A stretch of 64,000 bases of DNA, taken from the IMG/VR virus record IMGVR_UViG_3300033182_000980, positions 62,001-126,000 of that record. One strand, 5' to 3'. Shown one piece after another: positions 3,681 to 46,220 of the stretch. The DNA comes from a virus. Within the stretch, counting starts at the first letter, position 1. Each line of letters begins with the position of its first letter. The notes beneath the pieces are model-generated. The model did no database searches. It was not told the origin of the DNA and saw only the letters and a program-made list of their open reading frames with translations. The position numbers and the translations under genes were made by a program.

Positions 3681-3689
3681 TCTCTGATT

Positions 3690-4667: not shown

Positions 4668-4791
4668 GTACAAGCTAGTAGAAATCAATACCCTAGAGAC
4701 TGAGCCTAACCCATCGGGTATCGCCTATGACCTTGAGGTCGAGGAGGATCACTCATATACGATTGGGGAGAATAGGACTGTAGTTCATAAC
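4657..4791 (+). other. Split intein C-fragment coding segment (IntC)
   Basis: 45 residues including the start Met. Block F ([14 protein letters not shown]) and block G (RTVVHN) are intact; the penultimate His and terminal Asn needed for Asn cyclisation are present, and the +1 extein residue is Ser. Confidence 0.88.
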
Positions 4792-10276: not shown

Positions 10277-10287
10277 CGCCATATACC

Positions 10288-12183
10288 TCAAGGCCTACTA
10301 GAGATGAGTACACATTTACCAGAAGAGGGGTACTTACTCGTAAGCCTAACCCAAAGTTTTTTAGCAGTCGGATTGGTACTGCCGTTTGGTACGCAATAGT
10401 GGGGGGCAAAAACGAAAGGCTTTTTCAACTCATCCCAAATGTGTCGTATAAACCCTAAATAAAGATGATCTCCTAGCCTCTGACCTAAGAAATCTTCGTA
10501 TATCTCGGACTCGGACACAAAAGCCAAATAGATACTTGAGGTTGATCTGTCTCCCGCCTTTTCTTGAAGAACCCCTATGTCATAGTCACAAGGGCTGTCA
10601 AAGTTATAACTCCTACCCCACTCATACACAGCACCTTGAATACAACCTAGTTCCTCACCACCCCAACTTGTCCCATCGTCCTCCTGCATTTGAAGATTGA
10701 GGAAGAAAAGCACATCTAACCTCTCATGTCTGGTGTGATACTTTAAATCTACTTCCTCAAACTTGTGAGGTATAGAAGATAGTTTCAAGTATCTATGAGC
10801 CACCCTCTTTGCAGACTTCTCATAGCAGTTCTTATAGGGGCGACATGAAGCCTTTTCAGAGAAGCCCATGTCATCACAGCTTTTAGACTCACAATGCTCT
10901 TTATCCCACTTGCGTGGCATCTTGAACTCGGAGCTTTGTTTCTTCCACTTGCCCCCTAATCGCTTGTACTGAGCCAAAGCCCAACCGTTAGCATAAGCCG
11001 ATGGGAAGGTCTGAAACCCCTTGCCTTCATTGACAGGATTGACGGACTCTTTACCCCTAGAAACAGGTTTACTAGACTCACCTTTAGCTAGAGCTTGTAT
11101 CTCGGACCATAGCTTCTCATCGGTAGGTATGCTCTTTCCCCCTGCTTTCCTTAGAGGTGAAGAGTTATTGGCGAAGCCACTATCATAAGGGATAACCCTA
11201 GCACTACCGCTACCACTATCATGCACATAACCTCCGTCAAAGCCCTCGGCGGGTTTACGACCATAGGACTCGGAACGATCAAGATTTCTCGATTTGAGGT
11301 TAGGTGAGTCGGGGCTTGGGCGACCTATATTCCTCGCCCCATCACCATTTGGCATTTGAGAGCCTTCACCTTTGTCCTTAAGGTCTGTGCTTTTACCTGT
11401 GGGTGTTCCATTACTAAGGGTGCTTAACTCATCGGGTGGGCTAACCTGCCTAAAGAAATCGGCAACACGCATTTTTGCTGTTTCGGGAAACTCATTTTTG
11501 ATCTTCCTCACAGCTTTAATGTACTTTTTAGGTGCGTACTTCGCTAAGTCTTTAAGCCATGCCATAGGCTCTTTTAAATGCTTAGACCTGTATGAAGGAC
11601 GACTCGACTCACCTACAACATAAGAAACGATGTTTGCCACTTCATTTGGCTTTCTTCTCGATACGAAGTTGATTGCATTGATGGTGTCCTCTAAGCGAGG
11701 GTAAAACTCATTGTCATCTAAGCGATGGTGGAGTAGCTCACCTGTTTCTTGTCTATATTGTGGAGTCCTCTCCCTAAGACCAGGAAGCCCTGCTGTTGGA
11801 GAGTCCGCTCTCGGATCACCGTCTCGTGATCTGGTATAAAGGATTTGATATACATGAACCAACTCGTGTGCGACTACTCTATGAAGGGCTTCTGCTAGTT
11901 CTCTACCCTCATAGTTTTCTTCAAAGTAGAGAAGGTTCACATAAAGAACAGAGTTAGTTGGATCGTATTTAGCTTCAACTCTACTATACTTTTCGGACGC
12001 ACTAGGGGGTATGATCTCTACCCTCAAGTCTAAGTCCTCTACATGACCGCGAGTCCTCGGTGGTGGGGGTACAGTGACATTTTTACTAAGTTTGTCATAG
12101 ACACCGACTTGGCTTAATAAGTATTCTTCGACTTGTTCCACCACAGCTCTAGGTGGTCTTATTCTACTCGTTCTACTCTGCAT
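10288..12183 (-). CDS. Modular protein: HExxH metalloprotease-like, disordered linker, acetyltransferase-like C-terminus
   Basis: 631 residues. The N-terminal ~170 contain VVAHELVHVYQ, a zincin HExxH site (HELVH), after a strand NSVLYVNLLYF that fits a metalloprotease active-site edge. Residues ~230-400 are polar and probably disordered. PSAYANGWALAQYKRLGGKW and MGFSEKASCRPYKNCY (~405-470) are segments common in phage structural polyproteins. Next comes KRVAHRYLKLSS, the short motif shared with other proteins here, then ~170 residues (IQGAVYEWGRSY, YLAFVSESEIYEDFLGQRLGDHLYLGFI, NPTAKKLWVRL) with a GNAT-like layout. First gene of the operon 12183 to 7426; promoter motif at 12211-12229 and RBS AAGGAG. 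Confidence 0.7.
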   Translation of the reverse strand: MQSRTSRIRPPRAVVEQVEEYLLSQVGVYDKLSKNVTVPPPPRTRGHVEDLDLRVEIIPPSASEKYSRVEAKYDPTNSVLYVNLLYFEENYEGRELAEALHRVVAHELVHVYQILYTRSRDGDPRADSPTAGLPGLRERTPQYRQETGELLHHRLDDNEFYPRLEDTINAINFVSRRKPNEVANIVSYVVGESSRPSYRSKHLKEPMAWLKDLAKYAPKKYIKAVRKIKNEFPETAKMRVADFFRQVSPPDELSTLSNGTPTGKSTDLKDKGEGSQMPNGDGARNIGRPSPDSPNLKSRNLDRSESYGRKPAEGFDGGYVHDSGSGSARVIPYDSGFANNSSPLRKAGGKSIPTDEKLWSEIQALAKGESSKPVSRGKESVNPVNEGKGFQTFPSAYANGWALAQYKRLGGKWKKQSSEFKMPRKWDKEHCESKSCDDMGFSEKASCRPYKNCYEKSAKRVAHRYLKLSSIPHKFEEVDLKYHTRHERLDVLFFLNLQMQEDDGTSWGGEELGCIQGAVYEWGRSYNFDSPCDYDIGVLQEKAGDRSTSSIYLAFVSESEIYEDFLGQRLGDHLYLGFIRHIWDELKKPFVFAPHYCVPNGSTNPTAKKLWVRLTSKYPSSGKCVLISSRP

Positions 12184-12799: not shown

Positions 12800-13308
12800 G
12801 CAAACGAGCTGAACGGATAAAAGAGAAGATCCCCATCCTCTCGGTATTAAGTGCCTATAACTATGATGTACATGGTCGGGATCATCAGCAACAGTTTAGA
12901 TGCGACCTACATGGTGATGGTTCGGATAACGCACCCTCGGCTCGTGTGTATCCAGAGACAAACACATGGTTCTGTTTCGCCTGTGGTAAAGTGCGAGACT
13001 CCATCGCTACGGTCATGGAGAAAGAGGGGTTAGACTTTGGTAAGGCTTGTACTGCCCTTGAACTCAAATATGGACTTGAGGTCTGGAAGTACGAGCCTAA
13101 GAAGGACATCTTTGAGGACACCTATGAAGACCCTACACGCAAGGAAATACTAGTGCGTAGGGTAGAGGGTCTATTAAACGAGAAAACCTCTAGGAGAGAG
13201 GATTATGAGGACACCTTACGCTATTGGGAGGTGTTCAATATGCTCTCCTCACTAGAGGACTCTAAGGTGCGTCAATGGGAGAAGCTATATAAGGCTTTAT
13301 CCTCTTAG
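12796..13308 (+). CDS. CHC2-type zinc-finger protein (DnaG-like zinc-binding domain)
   Basis: 170 residues. Residues ~30-85 are the primase-type CHC2 zinc ribbon: FRCDLHGDGSDNAPSARVY (C-x2-H) and TWFCFACGKVRDSI (C-x2-C), followed by the usual helix with MEKEGLDFGKACTAL. Such domains recognise template DNA for primer synthesis. No TOPRIM or helicase domain follows; the remaining ~85 residues are charged and helical. So it is a stand-alone primase zinc domain that would need a separate catalytic subunit, or a regulator derived from one. Coupled to the upstream membrane protein by ATGA and convergent with the portal gene (four-base overlap). Confidence 0.75.
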   Translation: MSKRAERIKEKIPILSVLSAYNYDVHGRDHQQQFRCDLHGDGSDNAPSARVYPETNTWFCFACGKVRDSIATVMEKEGLDFGKACTALELKYGLEVWKYEPKKDIFEDTYEDPTRKEILVRRVEGLLNEKTSRREDYEDTLRYWEVFNMLSSLEDSKVRQWEKLYKALSS

Positions 13309-14981
13309 AAGCGACCACCGTCATCTTCTGGTGGGTTATACTTTAAGCCAAGATTTTTAGCGATGATCTCAATCGCTTCTGTGTTCTCGGCTAACATACG
13401 ACCTGCTTCGCCATAGACACCTCTAAGAACCTCATTAAACTGAGAGTCATTGAGCGTCCACATATCACGCTCAAGTTTAGCCTTAGTGGTCATAGGGTCT
13501 ACATTGAGGAGTTCTAAGATCACATCAATATCCAATGACCCCTTCTGATAAAGATTGAAGAGGGCATCGAATGTATCTTGGTTGTCTCTTAGCCCAAGTC
13601 GAGTGAAGCTAAGGGTAGGGTGTATTACAACCTCATCACCATCTTCATCTTCCTCAATGAAGCCCATGCGTCTACACATCGGTTTCAAGATGTTCTCCTC
13701 GACCATCTCTTGAAGAACCTCACGCATGAGCATATAGCGTGTGTTGATGACTTCTAGGTTGATCCTATCACCACTATAGCTTGACTCGCCCGAAAGCAGA
13801 GACTCGGTAACACCTAGACCAGCATACATTTGTCGGTCGGTCATGTCGTATTCACCCGATAGCTCAAGTAGACGAGAGTCTGCACCCATCTCCTCCCAAG
13901 AAACTTGGAAGTTAGCGATGATCGAGTAATCGGGGTCTTGGAGTGCAAGGTCAACTTGATCTCTTAACTCCTCAACATCAGCCGCGTCCATATCTTCTGC
14001 ATAAACGAGTCGGATAGGTGTCATGTGTCTTGAGGCGATTGAGGTTTGAGCCTGTCTTAACTTATCACGATACACCAAGATTCTGAGGCAACGCTCAAGC
14101 ATGGAGTGTCCACGAGGCTCATATTGAGATTTCTTACGAGCCATGTAGTAGACGAACGACCCTTGATCTGGATCGGTGTTGAGGTCAATGTTGCGTCCAT
14201 CTCGGATGGCTTCAACGACATCACCTGGCATTGAGTCTACTATCCTAAGAGCTGAAGGATCATTAACCGAAGCTCGTTCGACTACATCACGAGTCTTGCT
14301 GTCGGGGATGAGCTGGATGATCTTTTCGTTGGTGAAAGGAAAGCTCTCCATGTGGACTTGTTCGGGAGGGAGGATGCGAACACCAGTCCACCCTTTATAG
14401 TTCTTCTTGAGCCACTTGTAAGCTCGTTCATGGGAGTCCTCATATTCAGTCCACTCTGTGAAGGCAGACCCATCTTCTTTGAGAACATTCCGACCACTAT
14501 GAGTCACCTCTTGAGGCACATCTGGATTATTATCTTCACAGAAAACGAACACCTCACCGAGTAGGTTAAACTCATGTAGGATTTCTATAAGGCGGTGAAG
14601 TAGTCCGACACGCTTCGCCCACTTTTCACAGAACCTAAGTGCCTCATAAGCCATATCCCGATTACGAGCTTTGGGTAGACCTAATCTGATCTTAGAGAGG
14701 GGTAGCTCTGTATGTAGGTCTATCGCTTGACCTACGAAGGGGTCTGTTCGATAGAAGAACCTAAAATAGTTGCGTTGTTCGTCTTGGCTTTGGGGTAGCT
14801 CAAGGAAGTCAGTCGATAGCTCTGGTGAGTAGAAGTTCCCACCCGATCCCATCATAGAGCCACCTGTGGTCATAGCGACCTTGACTCTTGATTTCATCTC
14901 GGCAGGATTGAGCTTACGAGTGATCGCTTTTGATCGGGGTTTAATCTTCCCAACTGGTTTGGCTTCTAGTTCTTCGCTCAT
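13305..14981 (-). CDS. Portal protein
   Basis: 558 residues, normal for a phage portal that forms the dodecameric DNA entry ring at one head vertex. The family plan is clear: YFRFFYRTDPFVGQAIDLHTELPL, FCEKWAKRVGLLHRL and LLGEVFVFCEDN in the clip/wing region, ILPPEQVHMESFPF, YMARKKSQYEPRGHSMLERCLRILVYRDKLRQAQ (stem helices), and YAGLGVTESLLSGESSYSGDRINLEVINTRYMLM in the crown-side helices, ending in a coil and acidic tail. Start ATG 14981 has AAGGAT in front and lies inside the 3' end of the 15207 gene. The ClpP-like protease at 18901 may belong to the same head module. Confidence 0.88.
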   Translation of the reverse strand: MSEELEAKPVGKIKPRSKAITRKLNPAEMKSRVKVAMTTGGSMMGSGGNFYSPELSTDFLELPQSQDEQRNYFRFFYRTDPFVGQAIDLHTELPLSKIRLGLPKARNRDMAYEALRFCEKWAKRVGLLHRLIEILHEFNLLGEVFVFCEDNNPDVPQEVTHSGRNVLKEDGSAFTEWTEYEDSHERAYKWLKKNYKGWTGVRILPPEQVHMESFPFTNEKIIQLIPDSKTRDVVERASVNDPSALRIVDSMPGDVVEAIRDGRNIDLNTDPDQGSFVYYMARKKSQYEPRGHSMLERCLRILVYRDKLRQAQTSIASRHMTPIRLVYAEDMDAADVEELRDQVDLALQDPDYSIIANFQVSWEEMGADSRLLELSGEYDMTDRQMYAGLGVTESLLSGESSYSGDRINLEVINTRYMLMREVLQEMVEENILKPMCRRMGFIEEDEDGDEVVIHPTLSFTRLGLRDNQDTFDALFNLYQKGSLDIDVILELLNVDPMTTKAKLERDMWTLNDSQFNEVLRGVYGEAGRMLAENTEAIEIIAKNLGLKYNPPEDDGGRF

Positions 14982-16105: not shown

Positions 16106-17827
16106 ATGAGAGACAATCAGATATACCTCTACAATACCACAGTAGATGAAGCACTAGAGATACTTGGGATGGAATCTCGTAGAGACACAGCCCTCATTAA
16201 CCATGACGAGTTTGAAGTTAAGCTCAATAAAAAAGGCGACCATGTTATGGTGACTCTGTTAAGGGGTCTTGGCGACATGGACATTGATGACGGCATTATT
16301 CAGATCAAGATTGATTTTCCAGGTAAGTACCGAGATATGGAGAGCATTGATCGTGTACGAGCCGTTCTTGCACTTAATCCAAACAGCGATTGGTGGAAGG
16401 GCATCGTAGAGGAGCTTGAGGAGGGCTATCCTTTATCATGGAAAGTCGAAGAAATCTTGATTGAAACTGAAGAGCGTATTGAGAATCCAGATGAGGATGT
16501 ACTTGCTATGCTCGACCAAGCGATTGCAAGCAATCCTCGTTTTAGACTCCTTCAATCTTTCAAACAGCAAGTTTTATCTGGTCGTGAACTTTCAGAGCGA
16601 CAGATGGAGATCCTTGAGGAGAACTTAGGTTCAAGTGTTCCCTCAAACACCAATCAGATCGCTCGGATTAATGAAGCTCTCGCACTTGATCCTAGAAATC
16701 GTTTCGTTAGCCAGCTCAAGCAAAAAGCCGAGAATGGCATCACTTTGTCCGAGAGACAGATGAATGTGGTGGAAGAGATCATCGGAAGTCAGTCATCTCC
16801 TGCCGCTAAGATGCTCGCTGACCTTAAAGCCAATGCTTATCTTGAGCGTGAGGACTTTATGCTTATCAATAAAGGTCAGCGTAGGGGCATTGACTCACTC
16901 AATGATGAGGAGCGTAAGCGTTTGCGTCATCTCATCTACCGTAATGAGCGTAAGCTCGACAACACTTACTCCAAAGATGAAGTCAGAAGGCTTCTAAAGA
17001 AAGGAACAGCTATGCGTAGACTCGCTAGTGAAGTTATTCGTGATCTTGAGATGAGGATTGCTCGTCTTGAGGCAAACCTCAATCGTACTGCAAGCATGAC
17101 TCGTGAAGCCGCTGGAGATCCTCAGCTCGCTGGAGTTCGCTCAAGCACAGCTTACCATGAGGGTCGCTCAATGGCAGAGGCTACCTCTTGTATGCTTTAT
17201 CTCATCGGTGAGTCAGAGAATAAGAGCAAGTTCTACGAGATGGTCATCAACGGTTCTACCGTAGAAATCCTTTATGGTCGTCTCGGTTCTACCGGTCGTA
17301 GAGCAGATAAGTCATTCATGGACTCTTATGATGCACAGGCTTTCTTTGTTAAACAGCTCAAGTCTAAGCTCAAGAAAGGTTATGTCTCTGCATTCGCACA
17401 GCGTGGCGAGCATCGTAAGAGCGGTCCTCTCTATGGAACTTACCCAATCGGACTTACCTCTACTCCTGGACCTTGGCAGAACCAAGACATCGCTTATGAC
17501 CAAGCGATGATTACAGATACAGTTTCTGTTGTTCGTGCGGCGATTGCTTCATTCCAAGAGGACGGTATTGTTGATGAGCGAGCAATTGCTATGCTTATGT
17601 CTACACAGCGTTCACTCGGATTAAACAGGGATCAACTCTCACAAGAGTGTGCTAAAGAGATCGGTCTTGCTCTTGATCGTATCCAAGGTACAGGTCGTGC
17701 GGGTCGTCAGCCTGTTGAAGTTCGTACTCGTACTGCCATCAAGGGTCTACAGAAACTCATGCGTAAACTTGAGGGTGCTATGACTGGTGGTCGTAGAAGA
17801 GCTTTTTATCAAAAAAAAAATTGGTAA
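16106..17827 (+). CDS. Repeat protein with internal leader and WGR domain
   Basis: 573 residues in two parts. Part one has two ~55-residue repeats, NPRFRLLQSFKQQVLSGRELSERQ and DPRNRFVSQLKQKAENGITLSERQ; repeats with F-x-SL...G..LSxRQ occur in phage replication and inhibitor proteins. At residue 303 (ATG 17012, with AAAGGAA in front) the shared leader appears in variant form, MRRLASEVIRDLEMRIARLE, then NRTAS. Next comes a WGR domain (~350-420): CMLYLIGESENKSKFYEMVI, STVEILYGRLGSTGR, AFFVKQLKSKLKKGY. WGR domains of PARPs contact DNA ends and proteins. The frame ends in a run of ten A (17811-17820), where a -1 slip would join the next frame. Confidence 0.8.
   Translation: MRDNQIYLYNTTVDEALEILGMESRRDTALINHDEFEVKLNKKGDHVMVTLLRGLGDMDIDDGIIQIKIDFPGKYRDMESIDRVRAVLALNPNSDWWKGIVEELEEGYPLSWKVEEILIETEERIENPDEDVLAMLDQAIASNPRFRLLQSFKQQVLSGRELSERQMEILEENLGSSVPSNTNQIARINEALALDPRNRFVSQLKQKAENGITLSERQMNVVEEIIGSQSSPAAKMLADLKANAYLEREDFMLINKGQRRGIDSLNDEERKRLRHLIYRNERKLDNTYSKDEVRRLLKKGTAMRRLASEVIRDLEMRIARLEANLNRTASMTREAAGDPQLAGVRSSTAYHEGRSMAEATSCMLYLIGESENKSKFYEMVINGSTVEILYGRLGSTGRRADKSFMDSYDAQAFFVKQLKSKLKKGYVSAFAQRGEHRKSGPLYGTYPIGLTSTPGPWQNQDIAYDQAMITDTVSVVRAAIASFQEDGIVDERAIAMLMSTQRSLGLNRDQLSQECAKEIGLALDRIQGTGRAGRQPVEVRTRTAIKGLQKLMRKLEGAMTGGRRRAFYQKKNW
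17012..17827 (+). CDS. Possible internal in-frame product: leader plus WGR domain
   Basis: An internal ATG at 17012 preceded by AAAGGAA at good spacing would give a 271-residue protein that begins exactly like the other leader proteins. It could be a second translation product, or mark an older gene fusion whose leader now acts inside a polyprotein. Not separable from the parent frame by sequence alone. Confidence 0.4.
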   Translation: MRRLASEVIRDLEMRIARLEANLNRTASMTREAAGDPQLAGVRSSTAYHEGRSMAEATSCMLYLIGESENKSKFYEMVINGSTVEILYGRLGSTGRRADKSFMDSYDAQAFFVKQLKSKLKKGYVSAFAQRGEHRKSGPLYGTYPIGLTSTPGPWQNQDIAYDQAMITDTVSVVRAAIASFQEDGIVDERAIAMLMSTQRSLGLNRDQLSQECAKEIGLALDRIQGTGRAGRQPVEVRTRTAIKGLQKLMRKLEGAMTGGRRRAFYQKKNW

Positions 17828-24380: not shown

Positions 24381-27101
24381 TTGAGAGATCTCAAGTGCAA
24401 CTATGAGAAAAAACCGATTGAAAAAATGAAAGGAAAAGGCATGGGATTCCCTTTTTCAGACCACGCATTGTCGCTATTGAACTCTTATTACATGAAAGAG
24501 TCGGACGGATCACCACAGGAAGCATTTAAGAGAGCCGCTTACGCATACACCCCCAATAAAGAGCTTGCAGAGAGAGTGTTAGGGTACGCAACCAAAGGAT
24601 GGTTCATGTTCAGTTCGCCCATACTCTCCAACGCTGAGAGTACAGGTATGCCGATTTCTTGCTTCCTCACTTATGTTCCCGACACAGTTGAAGGTCTGAT
24701 CGAACATACAGAGGAGCTACGCTGGATGAGCGTTATGGGAGGTGGTGTCGGTGGGCATTGGGATCATGTTCGCTCGGTCAGCAAAAAAGCACCTGGTCCA
24801 ATCCCTTTCCTCAAGACTGTTGACTCGGATATGGTCGCATATAGACAGGGGTCAACTCGCAAAGGTAGCTACGCCGCTTACCTAGACATTAGCCATCCCG
24901 ATGTTGTTGAGTTTATGAACCTACGCCTCCCGACTGGTGGAGATACTAACCGTAAGTGCTTCAACCTCAATAACGCCCTTAACCTCACAGATGACTTTAT
25001 GACTGCTGTGATGAATGGCGACACTTGGGATCTCATTGATCCAGCAGACCAAACCGTTAGAGACACCGTAGATGCTCGTGAGCTTTGGCAACGCATTCTT
25101 GAAGTACGCTTTCGTACAGGAGAGCCTTACCTCAACTTTATTGATGAGGCGAATAGAAATCTCCCTCAACCCCTTAAGGATAAGGGGCTAAAGATTCATG
25201 GCTCGAACCTCTGTGTCAGAGGAGATACACAAGTTCTCACTCGTGACGGTTATTTCCCGATCTCATCTTTGGTGGGTCAAGATGTTGAGGTGTGGAACGG
25301 AAAACATTGGTCGATGACCACCATTGTCCAAACAGGAGAAGATCAAGAGATCCTTGAGGTCATTCTTGACAATGGAACTACTCTTTACACGACACCTTAT
25401 CACAAGTTTTATGACCATAAGGGGGAGGTTGTAGAAGCTAAAGATTTAACTACCTCCACAAAGCTGTTGAAATTTGAGATGCCTGTGGTTGATGGTGAGG
25501 GTGATTGGGAGAACGCTTATTCTTGTGGCTTCTTCACAGGGGACGGAACATATAACCACCTCCATCAACCTGTATCTTATCTTTATGGTAAGAAGAAGGC
25601 ATTGCTTGACAGGGTATCTACACCTCTTTGTCGAGTTCGCACAGGTTCTAAGTCAAATCGCTTTTCAGTCCTCCATGACAAGTCTGAAATCAAGGCAAAG
25701 TACGAAGTGCCTCTTGGTATGTCCTTAAAGACTCGCTTAGATTGGCTTTCTGGACTCTTAGACGCAGATGGTTGCGTTGCTAGGAATGGGCTAAACCAAA
25801 GTTTACAGCTTGTGTCTACGAACCGAGAATTCCTTACTGATTTGAGTCTCATGTTAAACACACTTGGAGTTCAACCTAGAGTCTCTGATTTCATGCCTGA
25901 GAGAACGGTGGACTTTGGTTCAGAGAGGGGTGGCGAGTATCGTTGTAAGGAAGCATGGAGGGTCTTAATCAACTCTAATGACACACAAAAGTTACTTGGT
26001 TTGGGTTTGAATACTCATCGCCTAGTCTTAAAAGAGCATAAACCACAAAGGTCAGCCTCAAGGTTTGTTCGTGTCTTTAGTGTCTCTAAGTCACAAAATG
26101 CGGATACTTATTGCTTCAACGAACCAAAGAGACACATGGGAGTGTTTAATGGTGTTCTTACAGGCAACTGTAATGAGATCCACCTCCCAACAGGACCTAA
26201 TCGCTCGGCAGTCTGTTGCCTCTCTAGTCTCAATGTAGAGATGTTTGATGAGTGGAAAGACACCACCATCGTAGAGGACTTGATCGAGTTCCTAGATGAT
26301 GTTCTTCAGTATTTCATTGAGAACGCACCTCCTCAACTTGAGAAGGCGATCAAGAGTGCCGAAGCAGAACGCTCACTTGGTCTAGGAACAATGGGCTTCC
26401 ATGCCTACTTGCAAAAGAAGGGGCTACCCTTCGAGTCAGTCTTTGCTGTCTCGGCTAACCGAAAAATTTACTCGACCATTAAGGAGAGGGCAGTCGCTTC
26501 CTCTAAGCGTTTAGCAGAAATCAAGGGGGAGTATCTTGACGGTATTGGGTCGGGCATGAGGAACAGTCATCTTCTCGCCATCGCCCCTAATGCTAACTCG
26601 GCTATCATCCTTGATACAAGCCCAAGCATTGAACCGTGGAAGTCAAATGCTTTCACTCACAGGACACGAGCTGGTTCATTCTTGCAGTTCAACAAGTATC
26701 TTCAAGCTGTGCTTGAGAAGAAAGAGGGCATTGATCTTGATGAGGTGAAGCAGAGCATCATTCTCAATCAAGGGAGCGTACAGCACCTCGATTTCTTGAC
26801 CCAGCTTGAAAAGGACACATTCAAGACTGCATTTGAGATCGACCAGATGTGGATTGTGGAACACGCTTCCGTTCGTCAAGAGTGGGTGTGTCAAGGTCAG
26901 TCAGTCAACCTATTCTTCCCTGCTGGCTCGGATAAGAACTATGTCAACGCTGTTCACTTGAGTGCATGGAAGAAGAAGCTCAAGGGGTTGTACTACCTTC
27001 GCACCAACGCTGGTGTAGTTGCTGATAAGGTGAGTGAGAAGATTGAGCGTAAGGCATTAAAGGACTATGACCTTGATGAGTGCATGAGCTGTCAAGGTTA
27101 A
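24381..27101 (+). CDS. nrdA: Class I ribonucleotide reductase large subunit with intein
   Basis: Reduces ribonucleoside diphosphates together with NrdB. Exteins give about 587 residues. Catalytic cysteines: GMPISCFLTY (C225 of E. coli), SNL-C-NEI (thiyl radical C439, with N437 and E441) and SAVCCLSSLN (C462). The C-terminal CMSC pair exchanges electrons with thioredoxin or glutaredoxin. The N-terminus is short and seems to lack the ATP-cone, so dATP feedback may be absent. Start: TTG 24381 is the longest frame; ATG 24426 has no clear RBS, while ATG 24441 has AAAGGAA in front and may be used. A 319-residue intein is inserted at the radical cysteine (25212-26168). Confidence 0.9.
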   Translation: MRDLKCNYEKKPIEKMKGKGMGFPFSDHALSLLNSYYMKESDGSPQEAFKRAAYAYTPNKELAERVLGYATKGWFMFSSPILSNAESTGMPISCFLTYVPDTVEGLIEHTEELRWMSVMGGGVGGHWDHVRSVSKKAPGPIPFLKTVDSDMVAYRQGSTRKGSYAAYLDISHPDVVEFMNLRLPTGGDTNRKCFNLNNALNLTDDFMTAVMNGDTWDLIDPADQTVRDTVDARELWQRILEVRFRTGEPYLNFIDEANRNLPQPLKDKGLKIHGSNLCVRGDTQVLTRDGYFPISSLVGQDVEVWNGKHWSMTTIVQTGEDQEILEVILDNGTTLYTTPYHKFYDHKGEVVEAKDLTTSTKLLKFEMPVVDGEGDWENAYSCGFFTGDGTYNHLHQPVSYLYGKKKALLDRVSTPLCRVRTGSKSNRFSVLHDKSEIKAKYEVPLGMSLKTRLDWLSGLLDADGCVARNGLNQSLQLVSTNREFLTDLSLMLNTLGVQPRVSDFMPERTVDFGSERGGEYRCKEAWRVLINSNDTQKLLGLGLNTHRLVLKEHKPQRSASRFVRVFSVSKSQNADTYCFNEPKRHMGVFNGVLTGNCNEIHLPTGPNRSAVCCLSSLNVEMFDEWKDTTIVEDLIEFLDDVLQYFIENAPPQLEKAIKSAEAERSLGLGTMGFHAYLQKKGLPFESVFAVSANRKIYSTIKERAVASSKRLAEIKGEYLDGIGSGMRNSHLLAIAPNANSAIILDTSPSIEPWKSNAFTHRTRAGSFLQFNKYLQAVLEKKEGIDLDEVKQSIILNQGSVQHLDFLTQLEKDTFKTAFEIDQMWIVEHASVRQEWVCQGQSVNLFFPAGSDKNYVNAVHLSAWKKKLKGLYYLRTNAGVVADKVSEKIERKALKDYDLDECMSCQG
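25212..26168 (+). other. Intein with LAGLIDADG endonuclease in nrdA
   Basis: 319 residues from Cys1 (CVRGDTQVLTRDGYFPI, block A; TPYHKFYD, block B) to the terminal GVLTGN, followed by extein Cys. Two LAGLIDADG-type motifs, SCGFFTGDGTY and LSGLLDADGCV, mark an endonuclease that appears intact. The penultimate residue is Gly instead of the usual His, a variation known to slow but not always prevent splicing. The +1 cysteine is also the enzyme's thiyl-radical cysteine. Confidence 0.9.
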
Positions 27102-29855: not shown

Positions 29856-29901
29856 TGACTACAGTTTATATGCGTTTACCAATCTCTAAAAGGAGTTTAA
29901 C

Positions 29902-30456
29902 ATGAACTACAATCGCATGATCCGAAGAGTCGCTTCTGCACACATGAGGAAGCTCGCACAAGAGAAGCCAGCAAGCGTTATGTTCGCTGAAGCTGTTATT
30001 GATACGAGAGACTTACTCAACTGGTTTCAAGATCAATCTGGTCTTGATCCCGAAGCAATGGGTTGGAAGGTTGCCGCCCACCACATGACCATAGAATTCT
30101 TTGACAAGAAAGAAAAGAAAGCTCTTAAGAGAGAGGGTCGTGCAGAGTCTAACATCCTTGAGCCTTATGCTGATCTCATTGGTAAGTCTGTTATTCTTGA
30201 TCTAGTCGGTTATGCACATGACGATAAGGGCATGGCTGTTCTTGTTGAGCCTAAAGGTCCTCTAGCTCGCCTTGTTAAGAACGCTGATCCACATATCACC
30301 ATCGCTACTAATGGTGTCGGGGCTAAATACAGCAACGAGCTTCTTGCAAAGGGAGAAATCATTCCAGCTCGTGGTTCGATTCAAGCACGAGTCGGCTGGA
30401 AAGATGCTCGTTCGGGTCAAGATATGTACGATCTTCCTTGGGACTTTGGTCAGTAA
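29902..30456 (+). CDS. 2H phosphoesterase-like protein with short N-terminal tag
   Basis: 184 residues. The two H-x-T motifs of the 2H phosphoesterase superfamily are at AAHHMTIEFF (~61-70) and ADPHITIATN (~128-137), framing strands of the right kind (VILDLVGYAHDDKGMAVLVE). Members act on 2',3'-cyclic or 2',5'/3',5'-linked RNA ends and on signalling nucleotides; T4 Acb1, which destroys CBASS signals, belongs to this superfamily. The plant/fungal tRNA ligase CPD domain also has PHIT...SNELL-type context, present here. The first 25 residues (IRRVASAHMRKLAQEK) carry the RVAxxxM motif seen at other N-termini in this window. Substrate unproven. Confidence 0.65.
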   Translation: MNYNRMIRRVASAHMRKLAQEKPASVMFAEAVIDTRDLLNWFQDQSGLDPEAMGWKVAAHHMTIEFFDKKEKKALKREGRAESNILEPYADLIGKSVILDLVGYAHDDKGMAVLVEPKGPLARLVKNADPHITIATNGVGAKYSNELLAKGEIIPARGSIQARVGWKDARSGQDMYDLPWDFGQ

Positions 30457-33434: not shown

Positions 33435-33779
33435 ATGAGAAGATCAGCAAGCGAAGTCTTAAGAAACTTAGAAATGCGTATCGCAAGACTTGAGAAGCAA
33501 GCAGGATTCACTGTAGGGCAAGAAGTACCTTATACACTAAGAACCCTTAAAAAAGTGATGTCAGAGGGTTATGGATTCAAAGTGATAAGTGTAGGGGGGG
33601 GTTTGAGTGATACTCTTGAATACAGTTTAACCTCCGAGCAAGTGGCTAAGATCAGTTCTAGGGGGAAGGTTGATGTTATGCTAAAAAACATTCAACAAGA
33701 GCTAAAGTTCTCGATAGAGCCTAACCTAAAGAGGAAGGGTCGTAAAAACTTCATTGTCCTCACAGAAAACCCTGCTTAA
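33435..33779 (+). CDS. Leader protein, 114 aa
   Basis: Begins MRRSASEVLRNLEMRIARLE, then KQAG. The cargo after residue ~25 is a small soluble domain (LRTLKKVMSEGYGFKVISVGGG, SRGKVDVMLKNIQQELKFSIEP) of unknown family. Its control region (promoter motif, CTCCATTGGTGATC leader, ATGGAGAAC) is nearly identical to that of the next gene, so the two arose by duplication of the control-plus-leader cassette with different cargo attached. I infer a packaged or targeted protein, not an enzyme I can name. Confidence 0.7.
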   Translation: MRRSASEVLRNLEMRIARLEKQAGFTVGQEVPYTLRTLKKVMSEGYGFKVISVGGGLSDTLEYSLTSEQVAKISSRGKVDVMLKNIQQELKFSIEPNLKRKGRKNFIVLTENPA

Positions 33780-33922: not shown

Positions 33923-34249
33923 ATGAGAAGATCAGCATCAGAAATTATCAGAAATCTTGAGCAAAGAATTGCTCGTCTTGAAAGTGAAAATGCGAAGACC
34001 GCAGGTCTTATGACAGTCCACACCTTAGATACAAGTAGTCGTGAAATACCTTACGGCACAACTGAATCAGAAGTTATGAACACTCAAGACCTTCCAAGTT
34101 TGCTTTTAAAGTCTGAAGTGACCATTACAAGAGACGGACTACAAGCAATAGATAGAGACGGTCGAGTCCACACGATTGAAATCTCAAAAGACGAGCTTAT
34201 TAAAGCTCTACTACCTCTAGCTAGACCTACATCTGTTAAGATGAAATAA
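33923..34249 (+). CDS. Leader protein, 108 aa
   Basis: Begins MRRSASEIIRNLEQRIARLE, then ENAKTAG. The cargo (residues ~30-108) is a different small domain from that of 33435 (TLDTSSREIPYGTTES, LLKSEVTITRDGLQAI, VHTIEISKDELIKALLPL), soluble and of unknown family. Convergent with the DHH-like gene, five bases apart. Same control region as 33435. Confidence 0.7.
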   Translation: MRRSASEIIRNLEQRIARLESENAKTAGLMTVHTLDTSSREIPYGTTESEVMNTQDLPSLLLKSEVTITRDGLQAIDRDGRVHTIEISKDELIKALLPLARPTSVKMK

Positions 34250-35149: not shown

Positions 35150-35190
35150 ATGAGCGATTACTAAACATATTACCTTTGAGGAGAATAGAC

Positions 35191-35784
35191 ATGAGAAATC
35201 TTGTTGCGAGAGTGGCGACAAAGTATATGAAAACAAGCTCGGAGAATCTTGAGCTTCATATCTTTGACTTTGATAACACATTGTTCCGTAGCCCCGAACC
35301 ACCAGAGTGGTGGTCGAATAAGAAAATGGGCTATTGGTTCAATGAGGCTATTAGTTTGAGTGAGCCTTTTATCCCTCAAAAGCCAAGTGGGGATTATTGG
35401 TATGGGAGCGTTGTCGGTGAGGCTAAACGCTCTATCTCTAACATGGACACTCTTGCGATCATGTGTACAGGTCGCCTTAATGATAACGGTGCGATGCGTT
35501 ATCGTGTTGCCGAGTTATTAAAGGGTAAAGGGTTGGACTTTGATGAGGTTCACCTAAAGCCAGGTACAGGATCGACATCTCGCTACAAGGCTAAACTGAC
35601 CTTTGATCTCCTCAAGAAGTACCCAAACATTCAGAGCGTGTCTGTTTGGGAAGATACTCAGAAGAACCTCGATGCCATTGAGACAGTGTGTGATCACTTT
35701 GGCGTTGAGTTCAACGCTCACCTCATTAAACCTAACCCATACCCTGTCTCTATCACCAAAGAGCAGTATGACCTGCTAAAGTAA
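35191..35784 (+). CDS. HAD-superfamily protein, Swiss-army-knife (SAK) RNA-repair-like
   Basis: 197 residues from ATG 35191 (GAGGAGA in front). After a short tag RVATKYMKTSS comes LHIFDFDNTLFRSPEPPEWW, the HAD motif I (D-x-D) in the form seen in the SAK-type HAD family, with its P-x-P-x-x-W-W run. TLAIMCTGRLND is motif II, LDFDEVHLKPGTGSTSRYKAKL gives the lysine, and SVWEDTQKNLDAI the acidic motif III/IV. SAK-family proteins are linked to RNA repair and are predicted phosphatases. With the 2H-like protein at 29902, which bears a similar tag, it could form an RNA end-healing pair; that is inference. Confidence 0.75.
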   Translation: MRNLVARVATKYMKTSSENLELHIFDFDNTLFRSPEPPEWWSNKKMGYWFNEAISLSEPFIPQKPSGDYWYGSVVGEAKRSISNMDTLAIMCTGRLNDNGAMRYRVAELLKGKGLDFDEVHLKPGTGSTSRYKAKLTFDLLKKYPNIQSVSVWEDTQKNLDAIETVCDHFGVEFNAHLIKPNPYPVSITKEQYDLLK

Positions 35785-39215: not shown

Positions 39216-41294
39216 GTGTTTTATGTTGCAAAAGTGTTGGGGCAGATTTTTGCTAATCCCCCTTATTATATTTTAAGATGTATCGTAGCTTCGGAGGCAG
39301 ATACAAAACCTATTGTGGTTAAAGGGAAGATCGCCGGTCCTGTCTCAAGAGGTCAAGTGTTCACCTTTCAAGGTAAAGAAACGCTCGATAAGCGTAATGG
39401 AAAAAAGAACCTAGACATCGTTCGCAATCCGATTAACCCTAAGTATTTAAAAGGTTCTGCTCTTTATAGCTGGTCGGATTGGTCAGACCCTCTCATGCAA
39501 GAGTCTATTGAGGTGATCTCAAGCCTCTCCGAAGCTGGTGTGCCTTTGAATGTCATCAACTCCATTTGGAATGATGTTCAAATGTCTCCCGACTCTATCG
39601 CCTCGAACCCTTGGTCTTTGGTCTACAAAGGTGTCTCGTTTCAAGGTGCAGATGAGATCGCTAAGACGCTACTGAAAAAAGACTTTGACCCCGAAAATGA
39701 AGGTCGGGTCGAAGCGTCTATCTTTTGGTCTATGCTTCAAGGTGTGTATCAAGGTCATTGCCACCTAGACACTAATACCGTGTTCAAAGATACTGCTGTC
39801 CTTACAGGCTTGACGAACCCGAAAGAAATCGGTCAAGTCATCAAGTCGATGAAAGAAGCAAAGCCTCCTCGCATCGTGGTCGATAAGATCCAACAAGACC
39901 CCTCTATTGGACTCTATTTGCCCTCTTATTACAAAATGGAGGTAGAGGTTGCCGAAGAAATAAAGTCGCCTCTAAGGGTCAATCCCATGCTTGAAACAAT
40001 GAGTATTGATGACATTAAGTCATACTCACGATACCCATTGACCAATACACAGCTCAAGGCTATCCAGCAAGGTCTTACAGAGCCATTCTCAATCGTGACA
40101 GGATTACCAGGAACAGGTAAGACAACTATCCTCAATACACTGTGTAAAATCCTACTTGATCGTAAAGAGAGTATCTTGCTCATTGCCCCGACAGGTATCG
40201 CCGCAAAACGAGCAAGTGCCTTAACCAATATGGATGCTTTTACAGTCCATAGAGCGTTCGGTGCTGGTCAACCTATGGACGATAAGACAGACAAGTCCGA
40301 CTATGAAGGTGTGAAGAAAGACGAAGAAAGTGGAGTTAAGGGCATTGGGAACAGCAATGACCCAAGCCGAGAGATTTGGAGGCATAACCCTCAAAACCCT
40401 CGCCCCGAATCTGTAGTCATTATAGATGAGTCCTCTATGATTGATCTTCACCTCATGTGGCGAGTGATGAAAGGTATATCGCCTAAGTGCCGAGTCATCA
40501 TGGTAGGGGATATAGCACAGCTACCCCCTGTCGGTGCTGGCTTTGTGTTGTCCGAGCTTATTGAGTCAAATGCAGTACCGAGAGAACACCTTACCGAAAT
40601 CTTTAGGCAAGGCGAGGGGAGTGGTGTTACGATTGCCGCTCACAAGATCCATGCTGGTGAAGTACCTCAACACAACAAGGATTATCAGTTTATTGATCGC
40701 TATACATCACAAGACATTCTTGACGAGATTGTGAACCGATGTAAAGAGCTTCACATGGACCAAGTAGATTTCCATGTAGTCAGCCCCACGCATCATGGCA
40801 AGGTCGGAGTCACGAACCTTAACCGAGAGCTAAGGTCGGCTTTGAACCCCGATATAGGTGGTGCTTTCATCCGAGTAGGCAACGACTCTATCCGAGTAGG
40901 TGATCGTGTGATGATTACCAAGAATGAGTATGATCTTAATGTCTATAATGGAGATATAGGTCGTATTAGGTCGATTGATAAAACAAGCGTGAGCGTACTT
41001 ATAAAGGGTGTAAAGGATCAGATCGTAGACATCCCATCTGACCAAGTAGGGAAGCTCTTGAGGCTCGCTTATGCGACAACTGTCCATAAGAGCCAAGGTC
41101 TTGAATATGACACCATCTTAATGCCTATGACCACAGATCATAGCTCAAACCTATTACAACGCTCTTTACTCTATACAGCAGTCACGAGAGCGAAAGATAA
41201 GGCTGTCTTGGTAGGGGATAAAGACGCTGTGGCTATTTGCGTTGGTAATGCGTCTAGTGGGCTTAGATACTCTAGGTTGAGGTATCGCTTTTAG
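39216..41294 (+). CDS. RecD2-like superfamily 1B helicase
   Basis: 692 residues from GTG 39216, preferred over TTG 39198 because GAGAAAGG lies at the right distance. The N-terminus (VASEADTKPIVVKGKIAGPVSRGQVFTFQG) is the OB-like domain of RecD2, followed by a helical region where helix-hairpin-helix motifs are expected. Core: SIVTGLPGTGKTTILNTL (Walker A), LIAPTGIAAKRAS (Ia), VVIIDESSMIDLHL (II), VIMVGDIAQLPPVGAG (III), LTEIFRQGEGSGV (IV) and LAYATTVHKSQGLEYDTI (V), TAVTRAKDKAVLVG (VI). Moves 5'-3' on ssDNA. It lies in line with the UvrD-like gene, giving helicases of opposite polarity side by side. Confidence 0.88.
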   Translation: MFYVAKVLGQIFANPPYYILRCIVASEADTKPIVVKGKIAGPVSRGQVFTFQGKETLDKRNGKKNLDIVRNPINPKYLKGSALYSWSDWSDPLMQESIEVISSLSEAGVPLNVINSIWNDVQMSPDSIASNPWSLVYKGVSFQGADEIAKTLLKKDFDPENEGRVEASIFWSMLQGVYQGHCHLDTNTVFKDTAVLTGLTNPKEIGQVIKSMKEAKPPRIVVDKIQQDPSIGLYLPSYYKMEVEVAEEIKSPLRVNPMLETMSIDDIKSYSRYPLTNTQLKAIQQGLTEPFSIVTGLPGTGKTTILNTLCKILLDRKESILLIAPTGIAAKRASALTNMDAFTVHRAFGAGQPMDDKTDKSDYEGVKKDEESGVKGIGNSNDPSREIWRHNPQNPRPESVVIIDESSMIDLHLMWRVMKGISPKCRVIMVGDIAQLPPVGAGFVLSELIESNAVPREHLTEIFRQGEGSGVTIAAHKIHAGEVPQHNKDYQFIDRYTSQDILDEIVNRCKELHMDQVDFHVVSPTHHGKVGVTNLNRELRSALNPDIGGAFIRVGNDSIRVGDRVMITKNEYDLNVYNGDIGRIRSIDKTSVSVLIKGVKDQIVDIPSDQVGKLLRLAYATTVHKSQGLEYDTILMPMTTDHSSNLLQRSLLYTAVTRAKDKAVLVGDKDAVAICVGNASSGLRYSRLRYRF

Positions 41295-42484
41295 ACGAAG
41301 ATAGTATCTTCTCTATCTGCACCCGTTGAAATGATCGACACTGGACAAACCTTCTCGCTTATATAACCAACATAAGCCTTTAGGTTCGCATGGAGGAATG
41401 AGTAGTCTTGAACACCCGCTGTATTATCCCAGCCGTCAAAGACTTCCATGCCCCCCTTCAATCCAATCTTTACCTCGCTAAACCCATCGAGGACATCAAC
41501 CTTGGTGAGAGCGAGTGAGGTAAAGCCATTTAGGATTTGAGCTTCCCGAAGCATTGGTAGCGAGTTCCAACCACAGCGTCTAGCCCGACCTGTGACTACT
41601 CCAAACTCACCCCCTTGAGTCCTTAGACGCTCACCAAGTTCACCTGTGTCCTCTAACCCAAATGGTCCAGCACCAACTCGTGTGCAATAGGCTTTCACTA
41701 CCCCAATGATTTCTGCATCACGAGGTAAGGCACAGCCAATACCTGCACTAATGCCTCCTGCAATCGTAGTAGAACTTGTTACGAATGGGTATGTGCCATG
41801 TGAGATGTCGAGGAATGTACCTTGAGCACCCTCAATGATGATCTTATTTGCTCCACCATTCATGGCTTCATGGAGCTTCACAGACAGGTTGTCATAGATG
41901 AATGGTATCCAGTTATTTCTCCACTTGTTCAACTTGGACATGATTTGCTCCTGTACAAGAGGAGCTGATAAACCGCCATGAGCCATAGCGATGAGCTTGG
42001 TTTTCTCTGCCCATGTCTTTGGGTCGAGTAGATCACCGACTCTTAAACCAATGCGTCTGGCTTTATCTTCATAGCAGACACCGATACCGTTGCGAGTTGT
42101 TCCGATACGATTGTCAGATTTCTCTTCACGAGCTGTATCTACCTCAATGTGGATAGGGAGGATGAGATGAGCACGATGGTCGATGAGAACCCTCTTACTT
42201 GCTTCCTCATAACCAACCATTTTACAGAGCATATCGAACTCACCTTGGAGAACATCAAGGTTGATCGCCATACCAGCTCCGAGTACACCCTTTGCTCCTC
42301 TTAGGACACCAGAGGGGAGGAGTCGGAGCTTGTATGTCTCCCCACCAAAGATGATGGTATGCCCAGCGTTGCTTCCCCCTTGAAAACGGATGCAGTAGTC
42401 AGCGTTGCCCGACAAGAAATCAACGATCTTGCCTTTACCCTCATCACCCCATTGAGCACCGATTACAGCTATGACTTGAGTCAT
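41291..42484 (-). CDS. purA: Adenylosuccinate synthetase
   Basis: 397 residues from ATG 42484 (GGAGAT in front; the upstream ATG 42496 contains that site). Makes adenylosuccinate from IMP, aspartate and GTP. GAQWGDEGKGKIVDFL holds the catalytic Asp, so this is PurA-like and not the PurZ variant, which replaces it, of phages with 2-aminoadenine DNA. Also GGSNAGHTI (His), KLRLLPSG, IGTTRNGIGVCYEDKARR, TRVGAGPF and TGRARRCGWNSLPM. Slightly shorter than the usual ~430. Together with the fractured guaC it forms a GMP-to-IMP-to-adenylosuccinate route. Convergent with the RecD2-like gene (four-base overlap). Confidence 0.92.
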   Translation of the reverse strand: MTQVIAVIGAQWGDEGKGKIVDFLSGNADYCIRFQGGSNAGHTIIFGGETYKLRLLPSGVLRGAKGVLGAGMAINLDVLQGEFDMLCKMVGYEEASKRVLIDHRAHLILPIHIEVDTAREEKSDNRIGTTRNGIGVCYEDKARRIGLRVGDLLDPKTWAEKTKLIAMAHGGLSAPLVQEQIMSKLNKWRNNWIPFIYDNLSVKLHEAMNGGANKIIIEGAQGTFLDISHGTYPFVTSSTTIAGGISAGIGCALPRDAEIIGVVKAYCTRVGAGPFGLEDTGELGERLRTQGGEFGVVTGRARRCGWNSLPMLREAQILNGFTSLALTKVDVLDGFSEVKIGLKGGMEVFDGWDNTAGVQDYSFLHANLKAYVGYISEKVCPVSIISTGADREDTIFV

Positions 42485-42499
42485 TTGTATCTCCATTAG

Positions 42500-43785: not shown

Positions 43786-43835
43786 CCTACCAATAAGTGA
43801 TCATTAAACCCTTAACCTTGAATGGAGAACCGATT

Positions 43836-44306
43836 ATGAGAAGATCAGCTTCAGAAATCATCAGTGACCTTGAAAATCGTATTGCACGACTTGAAGGTAA
43901 GACAGCCAACCACAATGCGAACATTAAGATCTCAACTTCCTGGTATACAGGCAGTCCAAGAGATGATGTGAGAATGATGACCTTGACTGATATAGTTGAT
44001 GAAGCTCAATCTGATTTTGAGTCTCAACAAAATCAACTTAAGGAAGATATTGAGCTAGGAGACGCTGAACGAGGTACTAACTTTAATGTCTACATTGACA
44101 TTGGATATGGTCAACTTCGCATTAACTCTGGTGCTGATGATGGAACTACTAACTATCAAGCTGGATGTGTTTGTTGTCTTTGGTCTGCTTTTGTAGCGGC
44201 AGGTCTTGCCGAGATGTCCTATCCTAATGCTTCAAAAAAACTAGCTTCCATGCTAAAAACTCGGTTAAGAGGTTTCTCGGTATCTGTGAATATAGAGAAG
44301 GCTTAA
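43836..44306 (+). CDS. Leader protein, 156 aa
   Basis: ATG 43836 is set by ATGGAGAAC and by homology of the leader; a GTG at 43797 would add 13 residues from the UTR. Begins MRRSASEIISDLENRIARLE, then GKTAN. Cargo: ISTSWYTGSPRDDVRMMTL, helical EAQSDFESQQNQLKEDIELGD, strands NFNVYIDIGYGQLRINSG and a Cys-containing hydrophobic helix (AGCVCCLWSAFVAAGLAEMS). Family unknown; the cargo differs from those of the other leader proteins. Convergent with the Mre11-like gene (four-base overlap). Confidence 0.7.
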   Translation: MRRSASEIISDLENRIARLEGKTANHNANIKISTSWYTGSPRDDVRMMTLTDIVDEAQSDFESQQNQLKEDIELGDAERGTNFNVYIDIGYGQLRINSGADDGTTNYQAGCVCCLWSAFVAAGLAEMSYPNASKKLASMLKTRLRGFSVSVNIEKA

Positions 44307-45306: not shown

Positions 45307-45341
45307 ACTATACTTATATGATCAAACTAAGGAGAACTAAC

Positions 45342-46220
45342 ATGAGAAGATCAGCTAGTGAGATGATTAGAGATCTTGAGCGTAGGGTCGCTCGTCTCGA
45401 AAGACAGGCTAAAAAAGAACCACAGTGGATTACTTGGGCTTTAGAGGTTTTGGTGGAGAGTCGTGAAACTCAAGCCAAAAGCAGAGATGATCTTGAAGAG
45501 AGAAGAAACGGTCAAGTATGGGAATACTATCAAGGTCGTGATGATGTGATCTTGGTTTCTTCTGATGCAGATCGGAGTGATTACATCATTTACGAGAGTG
45601 ATGACGCTAAGATCGCTTTGAACAACGAGATCATGGAGGACATTCTTGAAAATAAGCCTTTAGAACAAATCATTCGGCATATGCCCTGGACAAAAGACAT
45701 TCTTTTAAGCACACTCAGTTTGCGTTATGGAGATCTTCAGATGTGGGCTTCCGAATGGGCAGAGGCTACTGTTGAAGGTTTAGATGATGACGAGCTTATT
45801 GAGAGGGCTGGTATGGAAGATGAGAAAGCAGAGTATGAAGAAGAAAGGGATTACTACGAGAAAAGAATGGATCCAGAAGTAGACGGTAAAATTAATCCTC
45901 TTTATTCGGACAACGCAGAAGTTATGGTCTTTGACTATAATAATATGCTTAACGACCTACCCGAAAATGCCAGAACTAAGTTGGTGGCAGAAGCAGAAGA
46001 AGAGATTAGTACGGCTCTTAAACAGTACCCTTATGAGTATCTTACAGAAGAAATGGGTTGGAGTGAGGGTCAAGTTATTCAAGCATTTGGTTCTCCCGAC
46101 AAAGACGAAATCGAAAGCATCATTGATCAGTTAGGTGCTTCCGAGAGAGAGTTTCAGTATCTCGCACCTAGTGGGAAAAGGCTTAGGACTAAACTCAACT
46201 ATGTGATTGAAGAGATCTAA
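45342..46220 (+). CDS. Leader protein, 292 aa
   Basis: ATG 45342 is set by AAGGAGA and the leader MRRSASEMIRDLERRVARLE, then RQAKK. The cargo is large, acidic and mostly helical (WITWALEVLVESRETQAKS, LSTLSLRYGDLQMWASEWAEATVEGLDDDELIERAG, TALKQYPYEYLTEEMGWSEGQVIQAF), with EYEEERDYYEKRMDPEVDG in the middle. Family not recognised. Part of it (bases for EWAEA) recurs in the remnant at 33784. Twenty-two bases upstream of the SOD gene, so the two may be co-transcribed. Confidence 0.7.
   Translation: MRRSASEMIRDLERRVARLERQAKKEPQWITWALEVLVESRETQAKSRDDLEERRNGQVWEYYQGRDDVILVSSDADRSDYIIYESDDAKIALNNEIMEDILENKPLEQIIRHMPWTKDILLSTLSLRYGDLQMWASEWAEATVEGLDDDELIERAGMEDEKAEYEEERDYYEKRMDPEVDGKINPLYSDNAEVMVFDYNNMLNDLPENARTKLVAEAEEEISTALKQYPYEYLTEEMGWSEGQVIQAFGSPDKDEIESIIDQLGASEREFQYLAPSGKRLRTKLNYVIEEI

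Follow-up and report, generated by a model that had tools for sequence, protein, structure and literature searches.

A tagged 2H phosphoesterase of the CNPase/tRNA-ligase CPD type as a candidate virion-delivered RNA-end-healing enzyme of giant phages

Introduction

Jumbo-phage surveys describe, in the parts drawn on here, 2H phosphoesterases and stand-alone Swiss-army-knife HAD proteins that clean RNA ends beside ligases (PMC7824862, PMC9503650). For CNPase the cited section of one study gives H230, T232, H309, T311 and F235 as required for activity (PMC4643303). The 2H domains of polyvalent proteins are, as far as the consulted part of their survey goes, not seen together with RNA ligases, and RNase or nucleotide-degrading roles are preferred for them (PMC5512222). 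As to delivery, T4 has capsid-targeting sequences on internal proteins and on Alt (PMC5694885), and the N-terminal 30 residues of P1 DarB are sufficient for capsid targeting (PMC9024508), each according to the portion of the source used.

Here we analyse a 2H gene and a recurrent peptide tag in a stretch of 64,000 nt, hereafter the window, comprising bases 62001-126000 of the 375,691-base virus record IMGVR_UViG_3300033182_000980 (genome G000). Coordinates without a prefix refer to the window.

Results

The 2H gene is conserved and keeps both H-x-T motifs

An earlier interpretation made from the letters of the window (the sequence-only reading) had pointed to two H-x-T motifs in the ORF at 29902-30456. 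We confirmed both as hydrophobic motifs, HMTI starting at residue 61 and HITI at 131, and an orthologue keeps the pair. The gene and its elements are as follows.

29902-30456, plus strand: predicted 2H phosphoesterase gene of the CNPase/tRNA-ligase CPD type, 184 aa, ATG start
29890-29895, plus strand: ribosome-binding site AAGGAG of the 2H gene, read from the sequence
29902-29967, plus strand: N-terminal tag region of 2H, residues 1-22, of low confidence in the model (pLDDT 25-37)
29926-29946, plus strand: tag core RVASAHM, residues 9-15, read from the sequence
30082-30090, plus strand: first HxT, H61-M62-T63, read from the sequence
30292-30300, plus strand: second HxT, H131-I132-T133, read from the sequence and lying within the PF08302 match (residues 84-150)

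Two motifs of the form H-h-[TS]-h arose in 27 of 20,000 shuffles of the protein, and at least two of them occur in 2 of the 55 non-overlapping window ORFs, the other one encoding a 906-aa protein. The gene is present in 5 IMG/VR contigs with an encoded protein that is 93-97% identical and with dN/dS values of 0.02-0.10 (13 of 15 pairs computed), demonstrating that it is a genuine gene under purifying selection. The HxT pair is intact in all 6 close sequences of the alignment.

Searches of PHROGs and NCBIfam with the protein gave no match, nor did phmmer and hmmsearch against PDB sequences. In INPHARED phages tblastn returned nothing at 0.01 and two short, chance-like matches at E-values up to 10. 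A pattern scan of the genome contigs yielded 50 fitting stretches with no 2H relative among them, and both a degenerate PHITIATNG pattern and a profile of alignment A1, run against the viral contigs, retrieved no contig beyond the 5 already known.

Profile and fold comparisons point to the CNPase/CPD branch

The only Pfam family matching the window protein at E-values up to 10 was tRNA_lig_CPD (PF08302; 1.4e-4, 21.9 bits, 1.1 below the cut-off of 23), which 6 of the 7 sequences in alignment A1 likewise match in that E-value range. A divergent orthologue is encoded in two further records, G008 and G009 (profile E-values 5e-35 and 3e-35), and the following locus was compared directly.

L166:1411-1986: 2H orthologue

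The L166 protein shares 40% identity with the window protein over 182 columns, retains both HxT motifs as well as YSN[ED]LL, and matches PF08302 above the cut-off of 23 (7e-8, 32.7 bits). With these matches in window protein and orthologue, the earlier suggestion that the PHIT...SNELL context resembles tRNA ligase CPD domains holds.

Two AlphaFold models were generated, model 1 for the full-length protein with paralogues in the alignment (pLDDT 60.3, pTM 0.54) and model 2 for the tag-trimmed protein with close relatives in the alignment (pLDDT 67.7, pTM 0.63). Confidence is low around both HxT motifs in model 1, and the low pLDDT of the tag region indicates that it lies outside the fold. Foldseek matches in the PDB were weak (best E-value 0.035 for model 1 and 0.022 for model 2) and mostly to CNPase. 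In VIA-align CNPase ranked first for both models, with Z 9.6 over 136 residues (rmsd 4.0) for model 1 and Z 8.7 over 137 residues (rmsd 4.2) for model 2, values to be read in the light that a Z near 8 may reflect a common arrangement. Goldfish RICH scored Z 8.1 and 7.5, the CPD portion of 6u05, a fungal RNA kinase entry, Z 7.5 and 7.9, and LigT, plant and bacterial CPDases and rotavirus VP3 Z 5.8 or less. The top rows of both models, which are of modest confidence, are thus 2H enzymes with the bilobal 2H fold. Since the independent PF08302 match agrees, we regard the resemblance to CNPase/CPD as convincing. The counterparts of the CNPase residues required for activity are H61, T63, H131, T133 and F66, with F66 five residues past H61, which is the spacing of F235 after H230. 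The BFVD matches were headed by the walleye dermal sarcoma virus envelope polyprotein (1.7e-4), ahead of a Sylvanvirus protein annotated as uncharacterised (4.8e-4) and a protein from a Brevibacterium phage that carries the name RNA ligase (6e-4). The HxT pair, the PF08302 match and the 2H enzymes among the top folds uphold the assignment of the protein as a 2H phosphoesterase, and its place in the CNPase/CPD branch is very probable.

Kinship with T4 Acb1, also proposed in the sequence-only reading, found no such backing. The Acb1 family PF23474, which is present in the Pfam library, was matched neither by the window protein nor by the A1 members at E-values up to 10, and hhalign of 2H with T4 57B gave a probability of 0.4%, so that we rejected membership in Acb1. 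Of the fold comparison with Acb1 and CPD domains that had been suggested as a check, the CPD side came out positive, whereas Acb1 (7t27) reached Z 4.9 in row 49 for model 2, against 8.7 for CNPase, and was not among the matches listed for model 1; its best BFVD row was at 0.24. As far as sequence goes, 2H might nevertheless act on CBASS nucleotides.

The N-terminal tag recurs on unrelated proteins

The sequence-only reading had also noticed an RVA-type tag at the N-terminus of 2H, which proved to be real and recurrent. The expression [RK]VA..[YH][ML], composed after the tags had been seen, matches 6 times in the 55 window ORFs, compared with a mean of 0.06 and a maximum of 2 in 2000 shuffles, and a chance origin was therefore rejected. 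One of the 6 matches coincides with the first-HxT strand of 2H, leaving 5 true window tags, which are located at the N-termini of 2H and of a HAD protein and at three sites in two ORFs near the portal gene.

35176-35784, plus strand: HAD_SAK_1 protein with N-terminal tag RVATKYM (Pfam PF10307, 1.5e-18)
9020-10291, minus strand: 423-aa protein near the portal gene with tags KVAERYL (N-terminal) and RVALRYL (internal)
10288-12183, minus strand: 631-aa protein with internal tag RVAHRYL, on the portal's strand with one opposite-strand ORF between
13305-14981, minus strand: portal protein, a head marker (phrog_16240, 4.1e-32), 71.8% identical in the phage LR745208

A profile of the five tags detected 7 further ones in the genome (E-values 2e-4 to 0.08), the motif being visible in each. 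With the resulting 12-tag profile we found 14 RVAxRYM/L tags on 13 ORFs of G000, 12 of these 14 being training rows. The counts were 13 for G001, 5 for G004 and 3, all weak, for LR745208, and zero for phage G, Tunturi_5, T4 and phiKZ. Among the carriers in G000, one matches ART-PolyVal (1.9e-12) and another, which resembles poly(A) polymerase, matches PolyA_pol (3.9e-9); three other tagged proteins matched no Pfam family, and two of them look GNAT-like by eye. The tagged 122-aa piece of the poly(A)-polymerase fusion is a separate gene in G001 and fused in G000, and as the polymerase is tagged in G000 only we give it little weight as a tagged enzyme. Tags are N-terminal, C-terminal or, in large proteins, in the middle. 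In 2H (AQE) and HAD (SSE) the tag is followed by [AS]xE, resembling a prohead-protease site, and in two 2H homologues by AQD; by eye most other tags lack such a motif, which is not a consistent companion of the tag.

Further observations were made on tagged ORFs and on a second recurrent N-terminal module, approximately M-R-R-S-A-S-E-I-I-R-x-L-E-x-R-I-A-R-L-E-x-Q-A, which is coiled-coil like and stands on otherwise unrelated ORFs.

L077:2902-5748, minus strand: ORF of 948 aa containing two poly(A)-polymerase-like copies, its C-terminal piece being tagged
L064:1498-2556, minus strand: C39-like peptidase homologue ending in the tag RVASSYLNRG
L091:7386-8225, minus strand: C39-like peptidase homologue ending in the tag RVASAYINNH
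Second module in the window: 5935-6342 (minus strand), 33435-33779, 33923-34249, 43797-44306, 45318-46220, and inside 16106-17827
Second module at other loci: L024:2016-2558, L081:170-649, L081:708-1373

Tagged proteins lie in the head-gene cluster

LR745208 is a 485-kb phage whose portal and capsid proteins are 71.8% and 89% identical to those of G000. Its gene order is terminase, portal, a 134-aa gene, HAD_SAK-topoisomerase IB, a tagged 193-aa gene, protease-like, scaffold-like and capsid, with further ORFs interspersed and with all roles except portal and capsid being our reading; for the capsid ORF the Phage_capsid match (1.5e-4) is slightly below the cut-off. The HAD gene thus stands two places past the portal gene.

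L043:11978-13504 (LR745208): HAD_SAK (PF10307, 1e-23) joined to a eukaryotic-type topoisomerase IB (PF01028, 2e-26)

Two proteins encoded in the head cluster of G000 are tagged, one of 344 aa at its C-terminus and one of 1171 aa close to its end; both lie beside protease-like, scaffold-like and capsid genes and are homologous to LR745208 genes between portal and capsid, a position that suggests a role in the head. The C-terminal part of the 344-aa protein resembles the end of the LR745208 HAD (37% identity over 79 aa, 4e-10), and this end carries the tag KVATTYL. From the shared tagged end it follows that a phosphatase tagged N-terminally in one phage is fused to the end of a head-cluster protein in another. 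Tags on head-cluster proteins and the HAD fusion lend support to the earlier idea that the tag could mean delivery with the virion, and we lean slightly towards delivery of 2H in the head.

Adjoining the tagged ORFs near the portal gene is an ORF (7426-9129, minus strand) whose product is very basic in its N-terminal part and Dps/ferritin-like in its C-terminal part (phrog_3636, 4e-12).

The 2H orthologue of G008 and G009 has a LIRIAYENPHLR stretch at its N-terminus instead of the RVA tag, which is therefore not universal on this enzyme. A similar start, LIRLAHENPALR, is found on an LR745208 head-cluster ORF, these being the sole two places among the sequences searched; the extension may be another address or meaningless. 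The 2H orthologue L166:1411-1986 and the LR745208 head-cluster ORF L043:19130-19534 share what may be a third N-terminal module, L-R-x-K-L-I-R-[IL]-A-x-E-N-P-x-L-R-x-x-[IL]-L-P.

Alternatively, the tag might be a different address, such as the replication compartment or a membrane, or a hub-docking helix, and healing would then be carried out late by newly made enzyme. The mid-protein and C-terminal tags, unlike the N-terminal signals of T4 and P1, would suit such a role, as would the lack of a consistent protease site after the tag, whereas the tagged proteins within the head-gene cluster, and the fusion of the LR745208 HAD with the tagged end of one of them, speak against it. We consider this alternative unlikely, yet the strongest of those weighed here.

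A tagged HAD protein accompanies 2H, and no RNA ligase was recognised

The HAD_SAK_1 gene is located 5 kb from the 2H gene; its true start may be an ATG five codons inward. PF10307 takes its name from Swiss-army-knife RNA-repair proteins. The tag is N-terminal in the window HAD and in 55%-identical homologues (RVATKFL) and C-terminal in LR745208. With a tag pattern looser than [RK]VA..[YH][ML], all 8 nearest HAD homologues were found to be tagged compared with 1 of 51 others (59 loci examined of 79 found, the remaining 20, repeats of the same identity or weak partial matches, having been left out by hand). Because L090/L091, L093/L094 and L089/L092 are near-identical, the 8 correspond to about 4 independent lineages, of which one is at 55% identity. 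In G008 and G009 some 44 kb separate the 2H gene from the HAD gene.

RNA ligases of family PF09414 were not found in the genome record, which may be incomplete and could hold ligases of unfamiliar families. Neither were the T4 Rnl1-type ligase PF09511 (the T4 control was detected at 1e-26), RtcB (PF01139), or KptA, which would clear a 2'-phosphate. The sole kinase candidate, an AAA_33 protein, and a SIR2 protein (sirtuin) are both encoded in the genome and untagged, and were dismissed as tagged partners of 2H. The 2H protein itself comprises only 184 aa, with neither the kinase nor the ligase domain that a whole Trl1 enzyme has in the same protein; given this length and the genome search for PF09414, PF09511 and RtcB, we file it as a CPD-type domain and not as a tRNA ligase. 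We predict a stand-alone CPDase-type 2H phosphoesterase, with catalytic activity inferred from motifs and family.

The same enzyme, delivered in the same way, could instead cleave a host nucleotide signal, acting as an anti-CBASS, anti type III CRISPR or anti-Thoeris type protein. In its favour, neither RNA ligase nor KptA was found in the genome, and head delivery would fit early blocking of a signal. In addition, the part of the polyvalent-protein survey used here proposes nucleotide degradation or RNase action for the 2H domains (PMC5512222), and LR745208 encodes a LigT-type 2H (2_5_RNA_ligase2, 4.7e-13) with a RIASKYL tag that weakly matches the Acb1 family of Pfam (0.003). An hhalign comparison of A1 with this LigT-type protein gave nothing significant, and the two appear to be distinct 2H lineages. 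Signal cleavage is rendered rather unlikely by the 2H protein itself, which has no Acb1 profile match and whose nearest families and folds are enzymes of 2',3'-cyclic phosphates, and by its tagged HAD partner from an RNA-repair phosphatase family.

A paralogue has lost both histidines

The genome encodes a second protein related to 2H.

G000:200213-200602 (= L007:1492-1953, minus strand in L007): 2H paralogue without either catalytic His, 154 aa

It is 28% identical to the window protein over residues 53-180 and, together with homologues in 4 more contigs, has NPYI in place of DPHI and lacks the first motif. No Pfam family, PF08302 included, was matched at E-values up to 0.5, and tblastn against INPHARED gave no match. 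The loss of both His indicates that this lineage uses the 2H fold in active-looking and idle forms. That the window protein, too, is catalytically idle and serves as a structural or RNA-binding protein, in line with this non-catalytic use of the fold in the paralogue and the 4 contigs, is highly improbable as the HxT pair is intact in 6 of 6 close sequences and in the 40%-identical orthologue. The paralogue adjoins a zincin-like ORF, and a tagged 170-aa ORF is nearby.

Other features of the window

Three nucleotide-metabolism genes of the window were recorded.

24381-27101: ribonucleotide reductase large-subunit ORF with an apparent intein-like insert (CVRGDTQVLTRDG ... GVLTGNCNE)
2804-5286: GMP reductase/IMP dehydrogenase-like gene that looks split, its intein-like ends flanking a separate ORF (3690-4667)
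41291-42496, minus strand: adenylosuccinate-synthetase-like gene (by eye), which could serve PurZ-type modified-base synthesis

Discussion

A virion-delivered enzyme that heals RNA ends is the account we favour, and we assign it a probability of roughly 45%, as healing and head delivery support each other. Several points weigh against it: neither an RNA ligase nor KptA turned up and the one kinase candidate is untagged, both models are of modest confidence and the window protein falls just short of the CPD cut-off, the G008/G009 orthologue begins with another extension and its gene is far from that of HAD, and other roles are preferred for the 2H domains of polyvalent proteins (PMC5512222). 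During assembly the RVAxRYM-type tag would serve as an address putting 2H inside the head, together with other tagged cargo, namely an ADP-ribosyltransferase, GNAT-like proteins and the poly(A)-polymerase fusion. Entering the cell alongside the DNA, 2H would be present ahead of any phage gene expression. Its HxT pair would open the 2',3'-cyclic phosphates left at RNA 3' ends after cleavage by metal-independent RNases of the host, such as abortive-infection tRNA or mRNA nucleases, and by analogy with CNPase and fungal Trl1 the product would be a 2'-phosphate. We infer that the tagged HAD would cooperate by removing the remaining phosphate, resulting in ends ready for ligation or tailing. Taken by itself, RNA-end healing is probably the main job of 2H.

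More tentatively, and with some doubt, we suggest that in this giant-phage lineage portable RVAxRYM/L tags may be the head address for an injected kit that contains RNA healers and no phage ligase. Such a kit would consist of the CPD-type 2H, the Swiss-army-knife HAD and the poly(A)-polymerase fusion, its tag would be movable among N-terminus, C-terminus and domain junctions, and damaged RNA would be mended from the very first minute, with no need for the phage to express a gene.

If virion-delivered healing is correct, the tag predicts from sequence which proteins giant phages inject, which is otherwise the territory of virion proteomics, and it could be another protein-delivery signal besides those of T4 and P1. 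RNA-end healing would join the counter-defences that act before expression, and capsid-borne RNA-repair enzymes are directly testable. A healing enzyme without a phage RNA ligase also raises the question of the purpose of the healed ends. In titles and abstracts of the open-licence literature, outside of which most subscription papers lie, we found no paper describing the tag and none on virion-borne RNA repair. The RNA-healing enzyme is of a known kind; what seems undescribed is the portable tag that connects it with the head.

Comparison with known systems

With the Trl1 CPD domain (PF08302) and vertebrate CNPase the phage protein shares the Pfam match, with the orthologue over the cut-off, the nearest fold, the two HxT motifs and the Phe spacing. 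It differs in being a tagged, stand-alone protein of 184 aa without kinase or ligase domain, and it is shorter than the CNPase domain, of which 136 of about 206 residues were aligned. The anti-CBASS nuclease Acb1 has the 2H superfamily in common with it, but there is no profile match and the fold fits more poorly than that of CNPase/CPD.

The RNA-repair sets of jumbo phages consist, in the part of the survey drawn on, of 2H, PNK, Swiss-army-knife HAD and RNA ligase (PMC7824862). Here we found 2H, a stand-alone HAD_SAK, an AAA_33 candidate and a sirtuin, but no recognised RNA ligase, RtcB or KptA, and 2H and HAD carry a tag common to head-cluster proteins.

As with the capsid-targeting signals of T4 and P1, a short sequence stands on unrelated proteins, among them an ADP-ribosyltransferase and proteins of the head cluster. 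The RVAxRYM/L tag differs from them in its sequence, in being N-terminal, C-terminal or internal and in having no consistent protease site, and packaging would be its function by analogy. Finally, the presence of ART-PolyVal and 2H domains in effectors encoded close to portal genes recalls the polyvalent proteins, as these are presented in the consulted part of their survey (PMC5512222), whereas here such domains are encoded mostly by separate genes with a common tag and not within one long polypeptide.
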